This document shows positions 3,164 to 27,137 of a DNA stretch of 47,057 bases, in pieces. A model generated the notes under the pieces. That model did not search any database. It had not been told where the DNA came from and saw nothing but the letters and a program-made list of their open reading frames with translations. A program made the position numbers and the translations under genes. The stretch's first letter is position 1. Each line of letters begins with the position of its first letter. The stretch covers positions 1 to 47,057 of the forward strand of contig CAIJWE010000094.1 of the NCBI GenBank assembly GCA_903824295.1, read 5' to 3'. This DNA comes from an uncultured Chlorobiaceae bacterium (GTDB taxonomy: Bacteria; Bacteroidota; Chlorobiia; Chlorobiales; Chlorobiaceae).

Positions 3164-4207
3164 TCAGCAAATCCTTGGCAATTGTTCGCCGAGAGGCAGG
3201 TCAATGATGCGCTGGCTGCCGAAGGCGGTACGCATCACCACCATGCCGGGATGAAGGTTGACCACTGATCCGATGATGACGGCATCACGGCCTTCTGCAA
3301 AAGAGCGCATCACCTCCAGAACTTTTGCGGCATCGACGGCGGCAACGGCCACAACAAGTTTGCCTTCGTTGGCGACGTGGAGAGGGTCGATGCCAAGCAG
3401 TTCGCAGGCGCCGCGCACCTCTGCTTTCACGGGAATGGTTGTTTCATTGATGGAAATACCGACGTTGGATGATACGGCAAGCTCATTCAGGGTAGCGGCC
3501 ACTCCTCCCCTTGTGGGGTCGCGCATGGCATGGATTGCGGGCGCGACGTCGAGCATGGCGGCAATCATGCCACTCAGAGCGGCACAGTCGCTCTTGATGC
3601 GTGACTGGAAGGAGAGCCCTTCACGCGAGGTCATGATGGCCATGCCGTGATCGCCCACCGTGCCTGAAAGAATGATGCTGTCACCAGGGTGCAGATTGCG
3701 GCATGAGAGGTTGACCCCCTCCCTGACAATGCCAATTCCCGAAGTGTTGATGAAAAGTTTGTCGCACTGCCCTTTGCCAACCACCTTGGTGTCGCCGGTG
3801 ACAATCATCACCCCCGCTTTCCGGGCGGCCTCAGCCATGCTGATGACAATGGTTTCAAGCTCGGCGAGCGAAAATCCCTCTTCGATGATGAAGCCTGCAC
3901 TGAGGTAGAGGGGACGCGCCCCGCCAACCGCGAGGTCGTTGACGGTACCGTTGACCGCCAACTCGCCGATCGTGCCGCCGGGGAAAAAAATCGGGCTCAC
4001 CACATAGCTGTCGGTGGTGAAGGCCACCATACCGGGAGGGAGGTCAAGCTTTGCCTGATCGTCAAGCAGGTCAAGATAGGAGTTGTGGATATGCGGCATG
4101 AAGACCCGCTGCATGAGTGACTGGGAGAGGCGTCCTCCGGCACCATGGGCCATTTGGACGGTTTCGTGCTGCATGATTGGTGTCGGGCAGAGAGGGAGAA
4201 CGGTCAT
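3164..4207 (-). CDS. hypE: Hydrogenase maturation protein HypE (carbamoyl dehydratase)
   Basis: HypE converts the carbamoyl group placed on its C-terminal cysteine by HypF into a thiocyanate, the source of the cyanide ligands of [NiFe] hydrogenase. The 347-residue protein shows the AIR-synthase-like fold motifs: [13 protein letters not shown] near the start, [15 protein letters not shown], and [15 protein letters not shown]. It ends in PRIC, the invariant C-terminal cysteine. Its ATG overlaps the hypD stop by four bases (ATGA). It is the last gene of the hyp operon. I see no convincing terminator between it and hipB. Confidence 0.97.
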
Positions 4208-5298
4208 AAGGCAAAATTTCGGTGATAGTTGTAATAGGCGGCACAGGCTCCTTCAGAGGAGACCATGGTGGCGCCGAGTGGGTGCTCCGGGGTGCACTCC
4301 CGCGCAAATGCCGGGCAACCGTCGGGCTTCAAGACCCCCTGGAGCACACTGCCACTCATGCAAAGCGGTGATTCGGAGGCGCAGATATGCGAAACATCAA
4401 ACTTTTTTTCGGCGTCATAGTGACTGTACGCTTCCCTCAAAGAAAGTCCGCTTCCGGGGATGAGGCCGATTCCACGCCACTGCCGATCGGTGACTTCAAA
4501 AACCTCGCTGATAATCTTTTGCGCTACGAGGTTCCCTTCACGGCTCACCACCCTTCCATAGCGGTTGACCACCTCTGCACGCCCCTCTTCAAGCAGCTCA
4601 ACGGTTTTGAGAATTCCTGCAAGCAGGTCAACCGGCTCAAAACCGGTCGGCACAATCGGCACGTGAAACTCACGGGCCACCGGCTCATACTCCTCATAGC
4701 CCATGACCGCGCAGACATGGCCCGCCGCAAGGAAGCCCTGAACCCGGTTGGCGGGCGAGGAGAGAATGGCACGCATGGCTGGCGGCACCATTACCTGACT
4801 GACCAGAACGCTAAAGTTTTTGATCCCCTCGCGTGCGGCCTGCCAGACCGCCATGGCATTGGCCGGTGCCGTCGTCTCAAAGCCGACGGCAAAAAAGACC
4901 ACCTCTTTTGAGGGGTTGTCGCGGGCAATCTGGAGGGCATCGAGCGGGGAGAAGAGGATGCGGACATCTCCCCCTTCACTGCGCACCATGAAGAGATCCT
5001 TTGCACTGCCGGGCACACGCAGCATGTCGCCGAAACTGGTGAAGATCACCTCTTTTCTTGCCGCAACAAGGAGTGCCCGCTCAATGGATTCAAGCGGCGT
5101 GACGCAGACCGGACAACCGGGGCCATGCACCAGCTCTATGGTATCTGGCAGCAGTTGATCAAAGCCGTTGCGCATAATCGAATGCGTCTGCCCTCCGCAG
5201 ATCTCCATGATGGTCCAGTGACGGGTGGCTGTTCGGCGGATTTCATCAAGCAGCTTCCGGGCAAGCTCCGGGTCGCGGTATTCGTCGATATATTTCAT
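4204..5298 (-). CDS. hypD: Hydrogenase maturation protein HypD
   Basis: HypD is the iron-sulfur scaffold that, with HypC, assembles the Fe(CN)2CO unit. In this 364-residue protein the conserved cysteines are visible: Cys34 in CGGQTH, and Cys62 and Cys65 in [12 protein letters not shown]-terminal cluster includes [17 protein letters not shown] and the GACAAYYNY segment, positions expected for the 4Fe-4S ligands. It starts 11 bases after the hypC stop and overlaps hypE. Length is normal. Confidence 0.97.
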
Positions 5299-5309
5299 GC
5301 GGCTCCGAT

Positions 5310-5591
5310 TTACAGCGATTCGAAGGTCGGGGGCTCCCGATCAGGCTCATCAGGCTGAAATGCCCCGCTTTCAATAAGCTCCTGCCAGAGTTTCAGGCTT
5401 TCTGCTGCATCCTCTTCGTCAATGATTTTCAGGGCGAAGCCTGCATGGACGATGGTATACTGGCCAAGCTGAATTTCGGGCACATATTCAAGGCAGGCCC
5501 TTGTTTTTGAACCGTTCACATCAACAATGCCCATTTTGAGGCCGTTTTCATTGGAGAGTTCAACGAGTTTTCCGGGAATGGCGAGGCACAT
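5310..5591 (-). CDS. hypC: Hydrogenase maturation chaperone HypC
   Basis: A 93-residue HypC/HupF family protein. It begins [12 protein letters not shown]; the cysteine at position 2, exposed after Met removal, binds the iron centre together with HypD. The middle segment [19 protein letters not shown] is typical of the family. It lies between hypF (56 bases upstream) and hypD. Confidence 0.95.
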
Positions 5592-5647
5592 TGGGCTTGG
5601 TGGTTTTTTTCAAAAGATAGTGGAATATAGGGGTTACAAGGCGTATA

Positions 5648-8152
5648 TCATTGCACTCCGAAATAGTTGCCTTTGAGGTACTCCCGGCCGATGACTGCCT
5701 GGCCGAGGGAGATGCCGCCGTCGCCGGAGGGCACAAGGGCGTGAGTCAACACCTTGTAACCGTCGGCTTGCAGTTCACTGACAAGGGTTTCAAAGAGGAG
5801 TTCGTTCTGGAAGACTCCGCCGCTGAGTACTACGGTTTTCATGCCGGTCGCTTGGGATGCCTTTTCGATTAACTCGTGAAAGCTGGTTACAAGGGTGCGG
5901 TGGAACCTCCGGCTGATTTCACCTGTGGCCATCCCTTCTTGCAGGGCAGCGGCTACATCCTGAATGAGTGGTGAGAGCAGCAGAGTCCAGCGACCTTTTG
6001 CCTCATGGAGGGCCTTTTTGCCGGTGCTTACTCCTGCAGTGTGTGTATGCGCCACACCAACTTCTGCTGCGTCGTTTGTGCCAGTAGGAAAACCTGCTGC
6101 GTGCACAGGCCCTGCAACTCCTGATGCGTCGGTTGTGCTCGCAGTGCCTACGGATGGTTGCATCGGCGCAAGAGCTTGCACGTTCTCATACTGCAACCCA
6201 TAACGAAACGACTTGAGGCCAATTCTTCCCCCGGCGGCGTGCATGAGCGCGATGGCCGCCTCTCCCTCGAAGGTGATCTCGCCCCGCAGGTTGCAGAGAG
6301 CGGCAACGGCGTCGAAGAGCCTGCCGCAACTGGAAGTTTCAACGACGTTGACTCTCTTTTCGAGCAGTTCAAGCACCGGTGATATCCCCCGCTCTTTTAG
6401 GAAGGGCAGGTCAGGCAATTCAGCACAACTTCGATGAAGATAGCCAAGTGCCGCCCGCCAGGGCTGAGTAACCGCCGCCTCTCCTCCCGGCAATGGCATC
6501 GGCTCAAGTGAGGCAAAGCGTTCCACACCGGCAGCGTTGCCAATGAGCAGCTCTCCGCCCCAGATTGTCCCGTCGGTTCCGTAGCCTGTGCCATCAAGTA
6601 TCAGGCCAATGGCTGGCCCCTCCTCCCTGTTTTCGGCCAGACATGCCGCAAGATGGGCATGATGGTGCTGGACACCAAGCAACGGGAGACCCTGCTTCAG
6701 CGCCCACTGCGTGGTCATGTAACCGGGATGAAGGTCGTGCACCAGAAGCTCGGGAGTGGCCTGAAACAGGTGCTGCAAATGGGCGACAACCTGCTCAAAA
6801 TGGCGATATGCCTCAAAGTTTTTCATGTCGCCGATATGCTGGCTCATCAGCGCATGGGTGCCTTTCAGAAGGGTAATCGTGTTTTTCAGTTCACCTCCGG
6901 TACCAAGTACGATGGCGCCCCCTTCGGGCAGGGAGATCGGTGCTGGCACATATCCCCTGCTCCGCCTGATCTGGCGCAACGCTCCTGCAAGGTGGATGGT
7001 GACCGAATCGTCGCATTTGAGCCAGATGGGACGGTCATGCACCAAAAAAGCGTCAGCAATGCCCTTGAGTCGCAAGAGTGCCTCTTCATTCTCGCTCGCA
7101 ATCGGCTCCTCGCTGAAATTGGCGCTCGTCATCACCAGGATATCAAGATTGCCATCGAAAAGCAGGGTGTGCAAGGGGGTATAGGGAAGCATGACGCCAA
7201 GCCGATCATTGCCCGGCGCTATGGATGGCGAAAGGACGGCACACTCCCTCTTTTTCAGGAGCACAATGGGCGCCTGGGCAGAACTCAAGGCGGCACCTTC
7301 ACCCTCACTCACCTCGCAGCAGCTCCGTACAAGCTCCACATTGCGCATCATGACGGCAAATGGCTTGGCTTCACGCCCTTTCCTCTCCCGCAGTCGCCGC
7401 ACCGCTTGCTCATTTCGAGCGTCGACAGCAAGATGAAAACCTCCAAGCCCTTTCAGCGCAACAATAAGCCCCTTTTCGAGCAGCGCCACAGCGGCAGCGG
7501 CAGCATCACCCGGGAGAGGTGCACCTGAAGCGTCAAGCAGGGCAAGAGAGGGGCCGCACACCGGGCAGGCAGTGGGCTCTGCGTGAAAGCGCCGGTCGAG
7601 CGGGTTGTGGTACTCCCGCTCACACTCACCACACATTGTAAAACGGTGCATCGAAGTAGATGCACGGTCATAAGGCAGACGCCCCACAATGGTGTAACGC
7701 GGGCCGCAATTGGTACAGTTGATGAAGGGGTAACGGAAGCGTCGGTTTGCTGGATCAAGCATCTCCCGGCGGCAATCGCTGCAAAGGGCAATATCGGGCG
7801 GAATGAGTGTCTCAACCCCGGCACTGGAAGTAGAGTCTCCGATCAAAAAAGCCTCTTCAGCAACACAGTCAATGGTGCTCTCCTCAATGGACTCTATGGC
7901 GGCAAGCGGCGGACGTTCACCCGGCAGGCGCAGCAAGAACGCTTCGAGGAGAGCGGGCGCCCCCTGCACCTCAATCAGCACACCGGAAGCGGTATTTCGG
8001 ATAAACCCCTTGAGACCACAACTGACAGCAAGTCGGTAAACAAACGGGCGGAAGCCGACGCCCTGCACGATACCGTGAACACGCAAACGCCTCCGCGTTT
8101 CAGCGCTGTTATCAGGGCTGCTCAGTGCTGTGCCATTTTCGCTTCGAGCCAC
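5648..8152 (-). CDS. hypF: Carbamoyltransferase HypF with an in-frame tandem repeat insertion
   Basis: HypF uses carbamoyl phosphate and ATP to carbamoylate the C-terminal cysteine of HypE. Domains in order: acylphosphatase (VHGIVQGVGFRPFVYRL), two zinc-finger pairs (CSDCRREM with CTNCGP, then CGECEREY with CPVCGP), a YrdC-like domain (LKGLGGFHLAVDA), and a Kae1-like domain with VQHHHAHLAACLAE and VLSGGVFQN. At 834 residues it is longer than the usual 750 or so. The excess is a Ala/Gly/Thr-rich segment at residues 669-710 made of two tandem copies. The start is uncertain: GTG at 8152 overlaps the hypB end by 31 bases, and no ATG precedes the acylphosphatase motif. Confidence 0.93.
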   Translation of the reverse strand: MARSENGTALSSPDNSAETRRRLRVHGIVQGVGFRPFVYRLAVSCGLKGFIRNTASGVLIEVQGAPALLEAFLLRLPGERPPLAAIESIEESTIDCVAEEAFLIGDSTSSAGVETLIPPDIALCSDCRREMLDPANRRFRYPFINCTNCGPRYTIVGRLPYDRASTSMHRFTMCGECEREYHNPLDRRFHAEPTACPVCGPSLALLDASGAPLPGDAAAAAVALLEKGLIVALKGLGGFHLAVDARNEQAVRRLRERKGREAKPFAVMMRNVELVRSCCEVSEGEGAALSSAQAPIVLLKKRECAVLSPSIAPGNDRLGVMLPYTPLHTLLFDGNLDILVMTSANFSEEPIASENEEALLRLKGIADAFLVHDRPIWLKCDDSVTIHLAGALRQIRRSRGYVPAPISLPEGGAIVLGTGGELKNTITLLKGTHALMSQHIGDMKNFEAYRHFEQVVAHLQHLFQATPELLVHDLHPGYMTTQWALKQGLPLLGVQHHHAHLAACLAENREEGPAIGLILDGTGYGTDGTIWGGELLIGNAAGVERFASLEPMPLPGGEAAVTQPWRAALGYLHRSCAELPDLPFLKERGISPVLELLEKRVNVVETSSCGRLFDAVAALCNLRGEITFEGEAAIALMHAAGGRIGLKSFRYGLQYENVQALAPMQPSVGTASTTDASGVAGPVHAAGFPTGTNDAAEVGVAHTHTAGVSTGKKALHEAKGRWTLLLSPLIQDVAAALQEGMATGEISRRFHRTLVTSFHELIEKASQATGMKTVVLSGGVFQNELLFETLVSELQADGYKVLTHALVPSGDGGISLGQAVIGREYLKGNYFGVQ
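6023..6148 (-). repeat. Two-copy tandem repeat inside hypF
   Basis: Copy 1 (6083-6148, 66 bases) encodes a unit beginning GTASTTDASGVAGPVHAAGF. Copy 2 (6023-6082, 60 bases) encodes a unit beginning GTNDAAEVGVAHTHTAGV. Both start with GT and end in PT or ST, and they follow each other without a gap. The copies differ widely at the DNA level, so the duplication is not recent. The insertion sits between the ends of two normal HypF segments (after FRYGLQYE and before RWTLLLSPLIQD). Confidence 0.7.
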
Positions 8153-8925
8153 TCCTGCAATGCCGCAAGCCCCTCTCCGGTTGTGGCCGAGAGTTCAAAC
8201 CACTCCAGATGGTGGTTGACCCGCATGGCATTTTCACGGCATTTGGCCGCATCAAACTCCACATAAGGCAGAAGGTCGATCTTGTTGAGAATGCAGATAT
8301 CGGCCTCATGGAAGATGGTTGGATACTTCAGCGGCTTGTCGTCTCCCTCCGTCACACTGATAATGACCACTTTCAGCGCCTCGCCGAGGTCAAAAAGTGC
8401 CGGACAGACCAGATTTCCGACATTTTCGATACAGAGCAGCGAATTGTTTTGCATCTCAAGCTCTTTCATGGCGCGATTAACCATCAGGGCATCAAGATGG
8501 CATCCCGAACCGGTATTGATCTGAATCACCGGCACACCGAGCGCCTGAATCCTGTCAGCATCATTGGTGGTCTGCTGGTCGCCCTCGATAACGGCAACCG
8601 GAAAACGCTGCTGCAGGGCTGGAATAATTTTTTCGAGCAGCGAGGTTTTGCCCGAGCCTGGAGAGCTGAGCAAATTGAGCGCAAAGATCCCCCTTGCCTC
8701 AAAATATCCACGGTTTCGTTCGGCGAGCAGATTGTTTTTTTGAAGCACATCCTGTTCAAGCAGAACCTTCCGACCTGATCCCTCATGATGATGATCGCCA
8801 TGCTCATGGCTGTGATGCTCACCATGAGCGTGTTCGTGCTCGTTGACATGAAGATGATAGTCACTCTGGCCGGGTTTACGGAGCACCGCCCCGCCTTCAG
8901 TTGAACAACCGCAGGTATCACACAT
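8122..8925 (-). CDS. hypB: Nickel-inserting GTPase HypB
   Basis: HypB is the GTPase that, with HypA, delivers nickel to the hydrogenase large subunit. Residues 1-7 carry the high-affinity metal site CDTCGC. A histidine-rich stretch follows (about residues 24-50, with HEHAHGEHHSHEHGDHHH) and may store nickel. The G domain has the P-loop SPGSGKTSL, EGDQQT and NKIDLLPY. Length (267) is normal for the His-rich class. The ATG lies three bases after the hypA stop. Confidence 0.97.
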   Translation of the reverse strand: MCDTCGCSTEGGAVLRKPGQSDYHLHVNEHEHAHGEHHSHEHGDHHHEGSGRKVLLEQDVLQKNNLLAERNRGYFEARGIFALNLLSSPGSGKTSLLEKIIPALQQRFPVAVIEGDQQTTNDADRIQALGVPVIQINTGSGCHLDALMVNRAMKELEMQNNSLLCIENVGNLVCPALFDLGEALKVVIISVTEGDDKPLKYPTIFHEADICILNKIDLLPYVEFDAAKCRENAMRVNHHLEWFELSATTGEGLAALQEWLEAKMAQH

Positions 8926-10381: not shown

Positions 10382-11601
10382 TGATCACCGTTCAGGAGGC
10401 TCACAACCTCATCAATCACTCCGTTACCGTGTTGGGAATGGAGGAGCTGCCGCTCGGCCAACTGCAGGGAAGGGTGCTTGCCCGGGAGGTAAAGGCACCC
10501 TTTTCGCTCCCCCGTTTTACCAACTCGGCCATGGATGGCTTTGCCCTCAGGTGGAGTGATATCTCCACCGCGTCGAAAGAGTCCCCGGTTCGCCTCCAGA
10601 TTACCGAAAAGATTCCGGCGGGCACACTCTCCACGTTGCCGGTTACTCCTGGATGCTGTGCGGAGATCATGACTGGTGCGCCAATGCCGGACGGGGCTGA
10701 TACGGTTCTGGCGTTTGAAGAGAGCAGCGGCTTCGGGCAGGAATTTGTCGAAATCTACAAGGCACCGAAAAAGGGTGCCAATGTTCGTTACAGCGGTGAA
10801 GAGGTGGCTCTGGATGAAGTTGTTCTCCAGAAAGGGGTCACGCTCTCGCCCTCTGAAATTGCCGTACTTGCCTCATTCGGCTTTGCATCAGCTCCGGTAC
10901 ACAAGCAGCCGAGAGTTGCCATTGTTACCGTTGGTGATGAGGTGCGTAGCCCCGGTGAAGAGCTTTCCGGTGCAGAGATCTATAACTGCAATCGCTTTTT
11001 GCTTGAGTCGGCCTGCCGCTCAATCGGCATTGAGCCGGTCATGGTTCGCCATGCCCCCGATGAGAGAGCGTTGTTGCGTGAAGTGCTCGCACTGGCTCTC
11101 GGCGAAAGTGACCTGCTCATTACGGCAGGAGGCATCTCCTCCGGAGAGTATGACTTTGTCCAGGAGGAGCTCTCGGCACTTGGTGTCACAAAAAAATTCT
11201 GGAAGATTGCTCAAAAACCGGGTAAACCCCTCTATTTCGGCTCTACGGATGAAGGAAAAGCGGTTTTTGCCCTCCCCGGCAACCCGGTTTCGGCACTGGT
11301 CTGTTTTGTTGAGTATTGCCTGCCCGCCCTCTCTGCCCTGGCAGGAAAACCGGCGCCAGTAAAATTTCGTGCAGCTCTTGCCGAGCCCTTCACTTCCGAT
11401 AAAAAACGCCACCGCTTTTTGCTCGGAAGTGTCTGGGCTGAAGAGGGGCAGCTTTTGTGCAAAGCGTCGCCGAAAGTTGAATCACACATGATCACTGCCG
11501 TCGTTGGCTCAAACTGCCTGATCGAAGCGGAGCCATCCGAGGAGCCGCTTGCGAGGGGTTCGAAGCTGCTTTGCACCATGCTTCCCTGGTCAAACCGGTA
11601 A
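10378..11601 (+). CDS. moeA: Molybdopterin molybdenumtransferase MoeA
   Basis: MoeA inserts molybdate into adenylylated molybdopterin. The 407-residue protein has FTNSAMDGFAL, the EIMTGAPMPDGADTV segment, ITAGGISSGEYDF, KPGKPLYFG and ALPGNPVSALVCF, all canonical. It begins with two ATGs overlapping the moaC stop, so translation is coupled to the Mog domain that makes its substrate. Confidence 0.97.
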   Translation: MMITVQEAHNLINHSVTVLGMEELPLGQLQGRVLAREVKAPFSLPRFTNSAMDGFALRWSDISTASKESPVRLQITEKIPAGTLSTLPVTPGCCAEIMTGAPMPDGADTVLAFEESSGFGQEFVEIYKAPKKGANVRYSGEEVALDEVVLQKGVTLSPSEIAVLASFGFASAPVHKQPRVAIVTVGDEVRSPGEELSGAEIYNCNRFLLESACRSIGIEPVMVRHAPDERALLREVLALALGESDLLITAGGISSGEYDFVQEELSALGVTKKFWKIAQKPGKPLYFGSTDEGKAVFALPGNPVSALVCFVEYCLPALSALAGKPAPVKFRAALAEPFTSDKKRHRFLLGSVWAEEGQLLCKASPKVESHMITAVVGSNCLIEAEPSEEPLARGSKLLCTMLPWSNR

Positions 11602-11605
11602 CATC

Positions 11606-12697
11606 ATGCTCTTTCACCCTTTTGAAATAGCCTTTTGCGGTTATTCCGGCTCGGGAAAAACAACCCTCATCAGGGAGGTGGTTCGCCACCTCTCTCTGCG
11701 GCATTCCATTGCCTATTACAAACATGGCTGCCACCGCTTTGAGATCGACCGTGAAGGAAAAGATTCATGGGTAGTCGGTCGGGCGGGAGCCGAAACGGTC
11801 ATGATTTCTGATCCTGAAAAAAAAGCAGTTATCACCGGCTCTGGCACAGAAACGCTGCTTGAGCGTCACGCATTTGCAGAGCACGACCTGCTCATTGTTG
11901 AAGGGCTCAAGGAGTTGCCGCTGCAAAAACTTCTCGTGGTCGATTCAGAACGCAAAATACTCGACCTCGTCAAGAGTGGCTCCGTCACCAATGTTGCTGC
12001 ACTCATCGTTCCAGACGATCCAGCCGGCTATCCACCGTTCGGCATTCCCCTCTTTCAGCGCGATAACATCGGCGCCATCGCCATCTTTATTGAAACCCTC
12101 CTGCTTGACCGTGCGTTGAAAGAGCGACCGCTGCATGGTCTGGTACTGGCCGGGGGGCGCAGCTCACGCATGGGGTGCGACAAGGCGCTGCTTGCCTACC
12201 ATGCAAGCAACCAGCTTGTTCACACGGCAAAACTGCTGCAACGGCAATGCTCTAAAGTCTTTGTTTCCTGCAGGGAGGATCAGGCAGAAGTATACCGCGA
12301 CTTCGGTATTGAACTCATCGCCGACACGTACCTCGGTATCGGGCCTCTGGGGGGGCTGCTCTCTGCTCAACGCTCCTCTCCCGATGCAGCCTGGATTATT
12401 GCGGCATGTGATCTCCCCTTTGTTGATGAGGCCATCATCCGGCAACTCTCTTCAGAGCGCGATCCCCTGCGTTTCGCAACCGCATACCGCAACCCTCAGT
12501 CGGGCTGCATTGAGCCGCTCTGCGCCTGTTATGAACCAAAATCTCGCAACCGGCTTTTGCTCCGCCATTTGGATGGAAAAAATTCACTCGCCGCGTTTCT
12601 CAACAAGTCGCGCATCAAGGAGCTTGTGCTGCAAAAGAGCGACGCGCTGCAAAACATCAATGATCAGGCCGAAAGAAACGGCGTTCACTTTTCATGA
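11606..12697 (+). CDS. mobA: Bifunctional MobB-MobA fusion (molybdenum cofactor guanylyltransferase)
   Basis: The N-terminal part (residues 1-170) is MobB, a P-loop GTP-binding protein with FCGYSGSGKTTLIREV. The C-terminal part is MobA, with the nucleotidyltransferase motif LAGGRSSRMGCDKALL, GIGPLGGLLSA and ACDLPFVDE. MobA adds GMP to Mo-molybdopterin to make the MGD cofactor required by AioA. The ATG at 11606 is four bases after the moeA stop. An upstream extension of the frame is antisense-free but overlaps moeA, so I reject it. 363 residues; the MobB-MobA order is a known fusion. Confidence 0.93.
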   Translation: MLFHPFEIAFCGYSGSGKTTLIREVVRHLSLRHSIAYYKHGCHRFEIDREGKDSWVVGRAGAETVMISDPEKKAVITGSGTETLLERHAFAEHDLLIVEGLKELPLQKLLVVDSERKILDLVKSGSVTNVAALIVPDDPAGYPPFGIPLFQRDNIGAIAIFIETLLLDRALKERPLHGLVLAGGRSSRMGCDKALLAYHASNQLVHTAKLLQRQCSKVFVSCREDQAEVYRDFGIELIADTYLGIGPLGGLLSAQRSSPDAAWIIAACDLPFVDEAIIRQLSSERDPLRFATAYRNPQSGCIEPLCACYEPKSRNRLLLRHLDGKNSLAAFLNKSRIKELVLQKSDALQNINDQAERNGVHFS

Positions 12698-12775
12698 AAA
12701 GAAGGTGAAAAATGCTCGCGTCACACAGCTCAAACGTCCCGTTTCTCTCCTTATCGACACGGCAAACACCCGAAC

Positions 12776-12828
12776 CTTAAAGTAAGCTTAAAATAGACTT
12801 AAAATACTTTTAAAAAGGACGTTAAAAG
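12776..12828 (+). promoter_or_regulatory. Ladder of 11-bp-phased TTAAAA repeats upstream of aioB
   Basis: TTAAAG at 12777 is followed by TTAAAA at 12788, 12799 and 12810, each exactly 11 bases apart, and another TTAAAA at 12822 (12 bases). Two units share the nine bases CTTAAAATA. Tandem hexamers with five-base spacers are the geometry of PhoB/PhoP-type (OmpR family) response-regulator boxes. A possible -10 (TATATC, 12831-12836) follows. The array sits 135 bases upstream of the aioB start in the 265-base interval after mobBA. The regulator's identity is inference. Confidence 0.5.
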
Positions 12829-12962
12829 GTTATATCCAAAAAGGTTTCTTACGAAATTGTTTGTAAAAAATTCAAAGAATCGACAACTTGCGGTTGGACA
12901 AAAACGGTTCCGTGCATCCGGAGCTTAACAATTGCTACCATCAACCCACGCAGGAGGAAGTT

Positions 12963-13451
12963 ATGTCGGACATCTCTCGAAGAAAGTTTCTTCAAACAAC
13001 ATCTGCTTCAGCCCTTCTCCTCTTTTCAGGACTGAGCAACACCCAGGCCGCTCCAGCGAAGAGCTACCCATCCAAAAAAATTGGCAACATCAGGAATCTC
13101 AAGCCGAATGAACCTCTTGCGTTTAACTATCCTGATGAACAGTCACCCTGTCTCTTGGTAAAGGTTGATAACGAAACCATTGGCGGAGTTGGCCCTCAAA
13201 AAAACGTTGTCTCCTTCTCTACACTCTGTACGCACATGGGCTGCCCGTTAACCTACAGCAAAGGGCGCCTTGTCTGCAAATGTCACTACTCCATGTTTGA
13301 TGTCTCCCGGAACGGTCAAACCTTTCAAGGGCTTGCCTCACAGTGGGTTGCACAAATTGTGCTGCGTCTTGATGCTGCAACCGGCAATATTTATGCCGAA
13401 GGGGTTGAAGGCCTTATTTACGGAAGAATCGGTAATCTTAAATTGAGCTAA
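12963..13451 (+). CDS. aioB: Arsenite oxidase small subunit AioB (Rieske protein)
   Basis: AioB carries a Rieske 2Fe-2S cluster and passes electrons from AioA to a periplasmic acceptor. Residues 5-11 (SRRKFLQ) form a twin-arginine signal, followed by a hydrophobic stretch and a likely cleavage near TQAAP. The Rieske motifs are C89-T-H91-M-G-C94 and C105-K-C107-H108. The disulfide-forming pair (Cys94 and Cys107) is present. I start at ATG 12963 because CAGGAGG lies six bases upstream. An upstream in-frame ATG at 12888 would bury the Tat signal. aioA follows after 14 bases. Length 162 is close to other AioB proteins. Confidence 0.92.
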   Translation: MSDISRRKFLQTTSASALLLFSGLSNTQAAPAKSYPSKKIGNIRNLKPNEPLAFNYPDEQSPCLLVKVDNETIGGVGPQKNVVSFSTLCTHMGCPLTYSKGRLVCKCHYSMFDVSRNGQTFQGLASQWVAQIVLRLDAATGNIYAEGVEGLIYGRIGNLKLS

Positions 13452-13465
13452 GGAGAAAACGAGCT

Positions 13466-16033
13466 ATGTCACTCTTCAAAAGAAAAGACTCCCTTCCCAT
13501 TCCTCCGCTGGATGCGGAAAAATATACGACGGTCTGCCAGTACTGCAGCGCCGGTTGCGGTTACAACGTCTTTGTCTGGCCTGAAAAAAGAAGCGGAACA
13601 GCAAAATCGAATGCGTTTCAGGTTGATCTGTCGCAGCAAAATCAGTTACTGTCAGGGTTTTCCTACACGGAAACCATGCATAATGTCATTACCCGCAAAA
13701 ATGGCAATAAATACAATCTTGCCATCATTCCAGCAAAAGAGTCACGCATCAACAAGGGCGACTACTCCATCAGGGGCGGCACCAATGCACAGACAGCCTA
13801 CACGCCAACCGGGCACACCAAAGATCGTCTGAAAGATCCCCTGCTCAGAAAAGAGAACGGTTTTGTAGCCATATCATGGGATGATGCCGTTGAAATCATT
13901 GCAACGGTGACCAAAAGCTCCATCGACAAATACGGAGCCGACAGTATCGCCATGAAGTTTTATGACCACGGAAGTTCCGGCCTTGGATTTGAAGACAACT
14001 GGGGTGCCGGCAAGCTTTTTTTAAGCGGCATTCAAACACACTATCTCTCAATTCACAACCGTCCGGCATACAATTCCGAGGTGTGGGGTTCAAGAGAGCG
14101 CGGTATGCATGAGCTTAACTACGATGTTGATGATGCTCGTCTGGCCGATACCATTGTGCTCTGGGGAGCGAATGCCTACGAAAGTGCTACGGTTTTTTTC
14201 ACTGAGCACATTATGCCGAACCTTCAGGGTGGTTCCGTTGAAGAGAAAAAGCAGGAATTTGATGCTGGAGAGCCAGCCGAGGAGGGACGCATTATTGTTA
14301 TTGACCCTCGCAAAAATGCCACAATAACGGTCAGCCAGGAAATTAGCGCCGAGCGGGTTCTGCATCTTCGTCCAAACCTTGGCACAGACTGGATTCTGGC
14401 CAATGCCCTTGCAAGAATTGCATGGGAAAACAAATGGTACGACAATGACTATCTCCAGAAACGCACCGACATGGTGACTTTTGAAGCCTACAAGAGCAAA
14501 TCTCTGCAGCTTGCAAAGTCCCTCGACAGCGTTCTTGCTGAGGCCGAAAAGATTACAGGGATCTCCAGAAAGGAGATGGAAGAGGCTGCCTCATGGATTG
14601 CCAAACCAAAAACAGGCGGGTTCAAGCGCAGAACCCTCACCCTGTATGAAAAGGGCATCATCTGGAACATGAAGAACTATGACCAGGTTGCCGCCATAGC
14701 ACAGCTCAATGTCCTTACCAGCAATGTTGGAAGACCGGGCACCGGCTGCGGACGGCTTGGCGGTCATCAGGAGGGATATGTAAGACCGGGCGCTCCAACA
14801 CCTGGCTCCATCTATGCTGGAGGCCCTCCAAAAAATGTCGACAACTACATCACCGGCGGTGGCGGAAAGATCTATTGGGTAGGCGCAACAGACCCCTATC
14901 TCTCAACACCGAACAGCAAGTTCTTCAAAAAATCGGTGAAAAAACGGGCAACCAACCTGCTCGATTATCTTGATAACGGCGGGATTCCTTCTGACACGAA
15001 AGCCTATATCGCAAAGGTGCTTGAGGCATTCGAAAAAACTGACGGCCTCTTCATGATTGTGCAGGATCTTTACAGGACAAACACCTCCGAAGATGCCATG
15101 CTGATCCTTCCTGCCGCCGGATGGGGAGAAGCGGTTGATACCTCAATAAACTGCCACAGCCGTCTGTTGAGGATTTATGACAAGTTCCTCGATGCTCCTG
15201 GAGAAGCGCTTCCGGACTGGAAGATTCTCGCGCTTGTCGGCAATAAACTCAAAGCACTCTACGAAGCTGACGGGAACAAGGTGATGGCCGAGCGCTTCAG
15301 CGGTATGGATTGGAAGAACGATGCCGAGGTATTTGAGGCTGGATCGCAAGAATTCGGAGACAACAAAGCCACAGAGAGTGAGGAGGCGAAACTTTCAGCA
15401 GAATGCTATAAAGGCGTAACACACGAGATGCTGCGCAAACTTGGCAACGAAGGCATCCAGACTCCTGTTCGTCAGGATCCCGCAACCGGCAAGCTTATTG
15501 GTACCAAACGCCGTTACAAGTACAGCTTTGCATCAAAGGACGGACTCTTCAAATGGTACGGCACCGATGCCTGGACAGGCTATCCGGCTGAAGTGGCAAA
15601 GTATGTCGACAATCCGGCCTACCCATTCTGGTTCACCACAGGCCGCTCCCAGCATGTCTGGCAGACCATGTACAACGACAAGAGAATTCCTGCGAAACTT
15701 TTAACAGTTCCCCTTCCCTATCTGGAAATTCACCCGGATGATGCCCTCAAGCTCAATCTGAAAACCGGTGAGATGGCAGAGGTCTTCAATGAGGAGGGCT
15801 CATGTCTGGCCCTTGTCTATGTTAATGATGCCACAAAACCGGGACTGGCCTTTGGACTCATGTACCATGCGAAAGGGACAATGAACAACCTGATCTCTTC
15901 CTATACCGATCCAAAAACCACAATACCGTGGTACAAGGGGACGAAGGTTGCTGTGAAAAAGTATACCGGCAAGCTTGATGACGCTATTAAAACAGTAAGC
16001 CTCCTGTCAAACAACGATTTTACCACCGGATAA
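13466..16033 (+). CDS. aioA: Arsenite oxidase large subunit AioA (bis-MGD molybdoenzyme)
   Basis: This is a DMSO-reductase-family molybdopterin oxidoreductase of 855 residues (A. faecalis AioA has about 825). The cluster motif is C24-X2-C27-X3-C31, followed by Ser101 in DYSIRGG. A serine at the fourth position marks the 3Fe-4S cluster typical of AioA, where most relatives have cysteine and 4Fe-4S. Other family segments are AAIAQLNVLTSNVGRPGTGCGR, with GGHQEGYVRPG, and FTTGRSQHVWQTMYNDKR near the cofactor. It has no signal peptide and would be exported with AioB by the Tat system. AAGGAG precedes the start. No aioX/S/R genes or cytochrome c gene are adjacent. Confidence 0.92.
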   Translation: MSLFKRKDSLPIPPLDAEKYTTVCQYCSAGCGYNVFVWPEKRSGTAKSNAFQVDLSQQNQLLSGFSYTETMHNVITRKNGNKYNLAIIPAKESRINKGDYSIRGGTNAQTAYTPTGHTKDRLKDPLLRKENGFVAISWDDAVEIIATVTKSSIDKYGADSIAMKFYDHGSSGLGFEDNWGAGKLFLSGIQTHYLSIHNRPAYNSEVWGSRERGMHELNYDVDDARLADTIVLWGANAYESATVFFTEHIMPNLQGGSVEEKKQEFDAGEPAEEGRIIVIDPRKNATITVSQEISAERVLHLRPNLGTDWILANALARIAWENKWYDNDYLQKRTDMVTFEAYKSKSLQLAKSLDSVLAEAEKITGISRKEMEEAASWIAKPKTGGFKRRTLTLYEKGIIWNMKNYDQVAAIAQLNVLTSNVGRPGTGCGRLGGHQEGYVRPGAPTPGSIYAGGPPKNVDNYITGGGGKIYWVGATDPYLSTPNSKFFKKSVKKRATNLLDYLDNGGIPSDTKAYIAKVLEAFEKTDGLFMIVQDLYRTNTSEDAMLILPAAGWGEAVDTSINCHSRLLRIYDKFLDAPGEALPDWKILALVGNKLKALYEADGNKVMAERFSGMDWKNDAEVFEAGSQEFGDNKATESEEAKLSAECYKGVTHEMLRKLGNEGIQTPVRQDPATGKLIGTKRRYKYSFASKDGLFKWYGTDAWTGYPAEVAKYVDNPAYPFWFTTGRSQHVWQTMYNDKRIPAKLLTVPLPYLEIHPDDALKLNLKTGEMAEVFNEEGSCLALVYVNDATKPGLAFGLMYHAKGTMNNLISSYTDPKTTIPWYKGTKVAVKKYTGKLDDAIKTVSLLSNNDFTTG

Positions 16034-25739: not shown

Positions 25740-27137
25740 ATGAATGTGCCTGATTTTTTCGACGATAACCGCCATTACCCAACGGGTGCATCAGGAAAAG
25801 AACAGCCCGACCTTGATGGTCTTGATTCGATGTTTGATTCGGAGGATATGCTTGACCGGATCATCCAATATAATGAAGAGGGGTTCCAGCTTGAAGCGCT
25901 GGCCGTTGCCCGTCGTCTTGCTGTAATAGCTCCCTCCAACACGGAGAGCTGGTTCTACCTCGGCAATTGCCTGACCCTCAATGGCTCTTTTGAAGAGGCT
26001 CTCGAAGCGTTCAAGATGGCTGCGGTCTTCAGCCCGATGGACAGCGAAATGCGCCTGAATCTGGCGCTTGCCTGGTTCAATACCGGCGACCACGAAGAGG
26101 CGATCAGAGAGCTTGATGATATGATTGTTGACTCCTCGATTGAAAAGGAGTACCACTACTACCGCGGTATCATTCTGCAGCGGCTTGAGCAGATTGTAGA
26201 AGCTGAATCAAACTTCGAATACGCCCTGACGCTTGATGCCGAGTTTGCCGATGCGTGGTATGAACTTGCCTACTGCAAGGATGTGCTGGGCAAGCTTGAG
26301 GAGAGTACCTCATGCTACCGCAAAACGCACGATTATGACCCCTACAATATTAATGCATGGTACAATAATGGCCTTGTACTGAGCAAAATGAAGCGCTACG
26401 ACGAGGCGCTCGACTGTTACGACATGGCCATAGCCATTTCCGATGATTTCAGCTCGGCCTGGTATAACCGGGCAAACGTTCTTGCTATCACCGGGCGTAT
26501 TGAGGAGGCTGCCGAAAGCTATCTGAAAACACTGGAGTATGACCCTGACGATATCAACGCCCTCTATAATCTTGGCATCGCCTACGAAGAGCTTGAGGAG
26601 TACACCGAGGGCATCGTCTGCTATCGCCGCTGCATTGAGCTGAGCAGTGATTTCAGTGACGCATGGTTTGCCCTTGCCTGTTGCCATGAAGCGCTTGATG
26701 AGTACCAGGAGGCATTTGCGGCCACTGCGGAGGCTTTGAAGTTGGCACCCGAGAGCATCGAGTTCCTGCTGCTCAAAGCGGAGATTGAGTATAATCTTAA
26801 CGATCTTGACCTCTCCATTGCGACCTACCAGCAGATCATGACGCTTGATCCTGAAAATCCGCAGATCTGGGTCGATTTTGCCATTGTGCTCAGGGAGGCT
26901 GGCCAAATCAATGCTTCAATTGATGCGCTGCAGCAATCGCTGAAACTTCAGCCGCTGTCGGCCGATGCCCACTTTGAAATTGCCGCCGCCTATTTTGCCA
27001 TGGGCGACAAACTCAGTACACTCAAGGCACTGAGCAAGGCATTCAAGATTGATCCGGAGAAAAAAGAGCTGTTTCAGAGCACCTTTCCGGAGCTCTATCA
27101 GCAGGATTCCGTCCGTCGGATGCTCGGAATTGCATGA
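25740..27137 (+). CDS. Tetratricopeptide-repeat protein
   Basis: A 465-residue soluble protein with an acidic N-terminal tail (about 45 residues) followed by at least ten TPR units of 34 residues. Examples are [36 protein letters not shown] and [18 protein letters not shown]. No catalytic domain and no signal peptide. I start at ATG 25740 rather than a TTG two codons upstream. Its last codons overlap aroE, so it heads an operon with aroE and probably lspA-tatD. Role: a protein-interaction scaffold, partners unknown. Confidence 0.88.

Follow-up and report, generated by a model that had tools for sequence, protein, structure and literature searches.

The window analysed here, meaning the whole 47,057-nucleotide stretch of contig CAIJWE010000094.1 (assembly GCA_903824295.1, positions 1 to 47,057) from an uncultured Chlorobiaceae bacterium, carries the arsenite oxidase genes aioB and aioA behind a gap of 265 bp, within which lies a ladder of TTAAA(G/A) hexamers. 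These features are listed below with the evidence for each in brackets.

12777..12827, minus strand: TTAAA(G/A) ladder, five hexamers starting at 12777, 12788, 12799, 12810 and 12822 (sequence, shuffles, matrix scan)
11549..12697, plus strand: MobB-MobA fusion gene, the preceding same-strand gene before the gap (PF03205, PF12804)
12963..13451, plus strand: aioB, Rieske subunit of arsenite oxidase, 162 aa (TIGR02694, 170 bits against a cut-off of 95.65; PF00355)
13466..16033, plus strand: aioA, molybdopterin subunit of arsenite oxidase, 855 aa (TIGR02693, 1058 bits against a cut-off of 359)

The hexamers read TTAAAG or TTAAAA, are spaced by 11, 11, 11 and 12 bp and lie 136-186 bp 5' of the aioB start codon (ATG at 12963). 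A sequence-only reading of the window had given these hexamers, coordinates and spacings, all of which were borne out by the sequence. It had also proposed TATATC (12831-12836) as a −10 box; this hexamer is present, but it is not conserved in relatives, and the promoter scan did not select it. On the minus strand, the ladder consists of TTTAAG-N5 units with an 11-bp period (12 bp at the last step), and the tandem direct half-sites with a period of about 11 bp that mark sites of the OmpR/PhoB family are thus found here. When the 265-bp gap was shuffled with its dinucleotides preserved, two 11-bp pairs arose in one of 20,000 shuffles and three such pairs in none of 20,000, because of which a chance origin of the ladder is ruled out.

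The same spacing was found elsewhere. Across 399 kb of the organism's own genome, the distances between TTAAA pairs peaked at 11, 22 and 33 bp (11, 8 and 5 pairs, with 0-3 at other distances), peaks that were lacking for the control word AAATT in the same DNA. Within 86 Chlorobiaceae genomes, three TTAAA words at an 11-bp period gave 48 matches as opposed to three for the reversed three-unit pattern and four for a 10-bp period. On account of these spacing peaks and family-wide counts, the aio ladder is considered one member of a motif family.

When the organism's own DNA was scanned for TTAAA words spaced by multiples of 11 bp, such words were found on contig C123, upstream of a three-gene operon encoding a small membrane protein, an OmpR-family response regulator (DNA-binding domain at 26100-26321) and a histidine kinase. 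The first gene has no NCBIfam match and is presumed here to be DUF4405-type. Four tandem 11-bp units precede this type of regulator operon in 41 of 42 genomes, in both genera, with exactly 11 bp from the array to a −10 box of TACATT or a variant of it. A tandem array just upstream of a −10 box is the layout expected for an autoregulated activator of the OmpR/PhoB family. The curated families nearest to the regulator are CopR/CusR/CzcR (TIGR01387, 224.7 against a cut-off of 279.2), with lower scores for the PhoB model (TIGR02154, 198.7; cut-off 296.2) and the PmrA model (158; cut-off 330), all three below cut-off. The best curated model for the kinase, TIGR01386, also scored below its cut-off (258.3 against 292.55). 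In the kinase (L062:8280-9839), the predicted periplasmic domain contains a run rich in Asp and Asn, which varies in length and is kept in most relatives; this hints at a cation signal as the stimulus without being evidence for one. It should also be noted that no metal-efflux gene was seen among the array targets examined.

The array, 11-bp and −10 layout was also found in the organism's own genome upstream of ApbE (contig C9), a thioredoxin gene that precedes a DUF3570-type gene and, on contig C85, a large RTX-type adhesin (with two arrays) and a FISUMP protein. In relatives, those named here being Chlorobiaceae or Chlorobium metagenome assemblies, it precedes TPR proteins, SWM-repeat adhesins and a cupredoxin-like protein. 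One published study (PMC8238504) discusses ApbE together with DUF3570 and thioredoxin as a flavinylated redox grouping of the extracytosolic kind. On contig C103 of the organism's own genome there is a decayed DUF4405-type paralogue (L145:2223, minus strand) with its regulator array and −10 still intact. In relative G031 (contig C117; L029/L051), a cadherin-like surface protein is preceded by three near-identical array-bearing segments at intervals of about 170 bp, which means that the arrays themselves have been duplicated.

This layout bears on whether the ladder could be a simple 11-bp minisatellite, or an array of phased A-tracts, with no dedicated regulator. The number of units does vary in steps of 11 bp, the aio ladder of G032 having one unit fewer than that of its near relative G073. 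However, the spacers are not repeated, and such an explanation is most improbable; it was rejected because many promoters that are unrelated carry the same grid at a fixed 11 bp from the −10 box, and because the reversed pattern is not enriched.

When a matrix was built from the promoters of the regulator operon alone, the aio ladder (35.4 bits, minus strand) came out as the top three-unit site in 469 kb of the organism's own DNA, out of a genome of 2.85 Mb. A site was counted as significant with this matrix when its score was reached by at most 3 of 400 shuffles. No significant site was detected in any of 30 pstS promoters.

The sequence-only reading had suggested that the ladder may serve PhoB-type control. 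The part of this which stands is the class of site, as tandem hexamers with 5-bp spacers fit the OmpR/PhoB family; PhoB as the regulator is opposed by the pstS promoters and by the matrix scores. The idea was reasonable, as PhoBR is established as controlling aioBA in Halomonas HAL1, which is without aioXSR (PMC4563254). A PhoB box with direct phosphate control, as in Halomonas, might further be favoured by the use of 11-bp tandem sites by PhoB-type proteins as well, as in cyanobacterial Pho boxes (PMC1906773), and by the PhoB-like gene that directly follows arsD-arsA in this genome. Against this, the search for the same repeat at phosphate genes found no 11-bp pair of TTAAA or TTTAA in any of the 30 pstS promoters, which share ATTTCAAAGTTA...TATCTT instead; absence of the repeat from phosphate genes had been named in the sequence-only reading as a refutation of its proposal. 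A ladder of a different type, TTAACA, was found at the promoter of a porin-pstS operon in 18 loci, again with an 11-bp period: GTTCACAATCT TGTAGCACTCC CTTAACAATTC CTCAACAGAAC, its four units being written GTTCACA, TGTAGCA, CTTAACA and CTCAACA (L068:12408, minus strand; L212-L231). This is presumably the Pho box of the genus; at pstS of the main pst operon, the conserved block is a different one. With the matrix made from the porin-pstS ladder, the porin promoter scored 36.5 bits and the aio ladder 7.6 bits, compared with the 35.4 bits of the ladder under the DUF4405-linked regulator matrix. The PhoB box was therefore rejected on the pstS and porin-pstS promoters and is held to be very unlikely; the argument is against PhoB as a direct regulator through the ladder, and phosphate may still affect aioBA indirectly.

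A PhoB-like regulator and a PhoR/PnpS-like kinase are encoded in a separate operon on the organism's contig C6, near a phosphatase gene. This regulator is nearer to the PhoB model (228.2 with TIGR02154) than that of C123, although it too is below cut-off. On the same contig (L063: 13470-8818, minus strand; L244-L246), the phoB-like gene begins within 4 bp after arsD-arsA and is followed by the phoR-like kinase gene. Three close relatives share this adjacency of arsD-arsA and phoB, which is absent from ten arsDA loci that are more distant. Independently of the aio ladder, it may link arsenic with phosphate.

The ladder was then compared among 18 aio loci of Chlorobiaceae. Conservation in related strains had been named in the sequence-only reading as a check on the repeats, and the ladder does recur in relatives: at least two units lie upstream of aioB in the organism's own genome and in G079, G073, G082 and G064, while the G066 and G074 loci keep one clear unit. 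Significant sites with the regulator matrix were present in seven of the 18 loci, five of them inverted (own genome, G079, G073, G064 and G082) and two in the opposite orientation (G065 and G012). As significant sites are limited to these seven, the link between ladder and aio is regarded as lineage-specific. The five inverted arrays occupy comparable positions relative to aioB (−133 to −160), and their flanks have diverged.

Closer to the start codon, three further features were identified in the gap.

12952..12957, plus strand: Shine-Dalgarno sequence AGGAGG of aioB (sequence)
12925..12937, no strand: palindrome-like TTAACAATTGCTA, family consensus TTAACAATTGTTA (conserved in 16 of 18 aio loci)
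12936..12941, plus strand: TACCAT, a possible weak −10 overlapping the palindrome (TACCAT/TACTAT-like in several relatives)

The TTAACAATTGTTA element, which lies 24-38 bp upstream of the start codon, keeps at least 11 of its 13 positions in those 16 loci, in both genera, and merges into TACCAT or TACTAT in several loci of the Chlorobium type. The TACCAT at 12936-12941 was not picked by the consensus promoter scan. Judging from this conservation, the element is probably part of the aioBA core promoter or operator. As a Pho box it was rejected, with a single TTAACA half-site and its inverse and a best Pho-matrix score of 7.7 bits. A sigma-54 promoter of the −24/−12 type (GG-N10-GC), as would serve AioR, had no match in 12698-12962 and was ruled out at aioB. 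The sequence-only reading had also noted that the AioXSR genes are absent from this locus, and this agrees with the main genes scanned at 1524-27137, in which no domain of a regulator, of a kinase or of the AioX type was seen, the search for them having been confined to that part of the genome.

Taken as a whole, it is considered fairly likely that the ladder is a binding array for the response regulator encoded on C123, a member of the OmpR/PhoB family, which would modulate aioBA from upstream. The protein would bind as a head-to-tail row of protomers along a single face of the DNA, each occupying one 11-bp TTTAAG-N5 unit. At its own operon and the other targets it would serve as an activator in place of the −35 element, because the arrays there end exactly 11 bp before the −10 box. 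At aioBA, modulation from an upstream position, with the proximal TTAACAATTGTTA element as core promoter or operator, seems most likely because of the inverted orientation of the array and its distance of 136-186 bp from the start codon. Any response of aioBA is somewhat more likely to be activation than repression, since the regulator looks like an activator at its other targets.

Several points weigh against this proposal. There is no −10 hexamer about 11 bp from the array at aioBA, nor any conserved −10, and the array is inverted relative to those of the other targets. A significant site was not found in 11 of the 18 aio loci, and the matrix ranking covers only the part of the genome given above. 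The genome also encodes four other OmpR-type regulators, one of which could share the motif.

The inverted orientation also speaks for a reading in which the array is a site for the C123 regulator that represses aioBA or has no effect, for example as the relic of a lost leftward promoter. Patchy presence among the aio loci points the same way, as does TGCCGT, which stands where a leftward −10 would be and differs from TANNNT by one mismatch. Nevertheless, the array is kept inverted at −133 to −160 in five loci despite the diverged flanks, and two loci carry it in the opposite orientation, as if regained for aioBA. A leftward promoter driven by the ladder was itself rejected, as there is no conserved leftward −10 and TGCCGT stands at the expected place. 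Repression or no effect is thus thought unlikely, although clearly less so than a minisatellite or a PhoB box.

Beyond upstream modulation of aioBA by the C123 regulator, a wider regulon is suggested more tentatively. Operons of the DUF4405, response regulator and histidine kinase type, acting through TTTAAG arrays of 11-bp period, might across the Chlorobiaceae connect arsenite oxidation with extracytosolic redox and surface functions (ApbE, thioredoxin/DUF3570, adhesins) by way of distant, inverted and copy-variable arrays at aioBA. This would make a third two-component control of aioBA besides AioXSR and PhoBR (PMC3834237, PMC4563254), from which it would differ in its response regulator and in having no sigma-54 promoter at aioB. 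Such a regulon was not found in the literature searched, nor was anything on a TTAAA-ladder motif in Chlorobium, subscription papers being outside the scope of the search. In a survey of arsenic islands, the regulation of aioBA without aioXSR was described as unclear, Chlorobi included (PMC3834237). With a candidate regulator, a motif and further targets now named, the question becomes testable for Chlorobi without AioXSR, and through the TTTAAG motif a regulon of the Chlorobiaceae can be traced in sequence data alone.

Other known systems show partial likeness. PmrA (BasR) of enterobacteria belongs to the same protein superfamily and class and binds head-to-tail CTTAAT/CCTAAG half-sites 5 bp apart (PMC3973317), but its box has two half-sites compared with three to five units here, and the C123 regulator scores better with the CopR/CusR-type models than with that of PmrA. 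The Pho boxes of cyanobacteria and E. coli (SphR/PhoB) resemble the arrays in their 11-bp-period tandem units just upstream of the −10, the former consisting of CTTAACCT repeats of 8 bp with a 3-bp linker and the latter lying 10 bp upstream of the −10 (PMC1906773), whereas this genus has its TTAACA-type ladder at porin-pstS. CopRS/CusRS/CzcRS provide the best curated models for both the regulator and the kinase, from which the present operon differs in its scores below cut-off and in its extra DUF4405-type first gene.

The TTAACAATTGTTA palindrome, which presumably resembles TTAACANNTGTTAA sites of the CRP/FNR type, was also found elsewhere (L067:4918; L188, L200, L207), namely upstream of a gene for a CxxCH outer-membrane-type protein on contig C85 of the organism's own genome. 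In relatives it lies upstream of a similar CxxCH-type gene, of a NiFe hydrogenase small subunit and of cysK. Within the window itself, NiFe-hydrogenase maturation genes (hypE-like AIRS, hypD, hypF and hypB-like) occupy 3164-8925 on the strand opposite to the aio and molybdenum-cofactor cluster.
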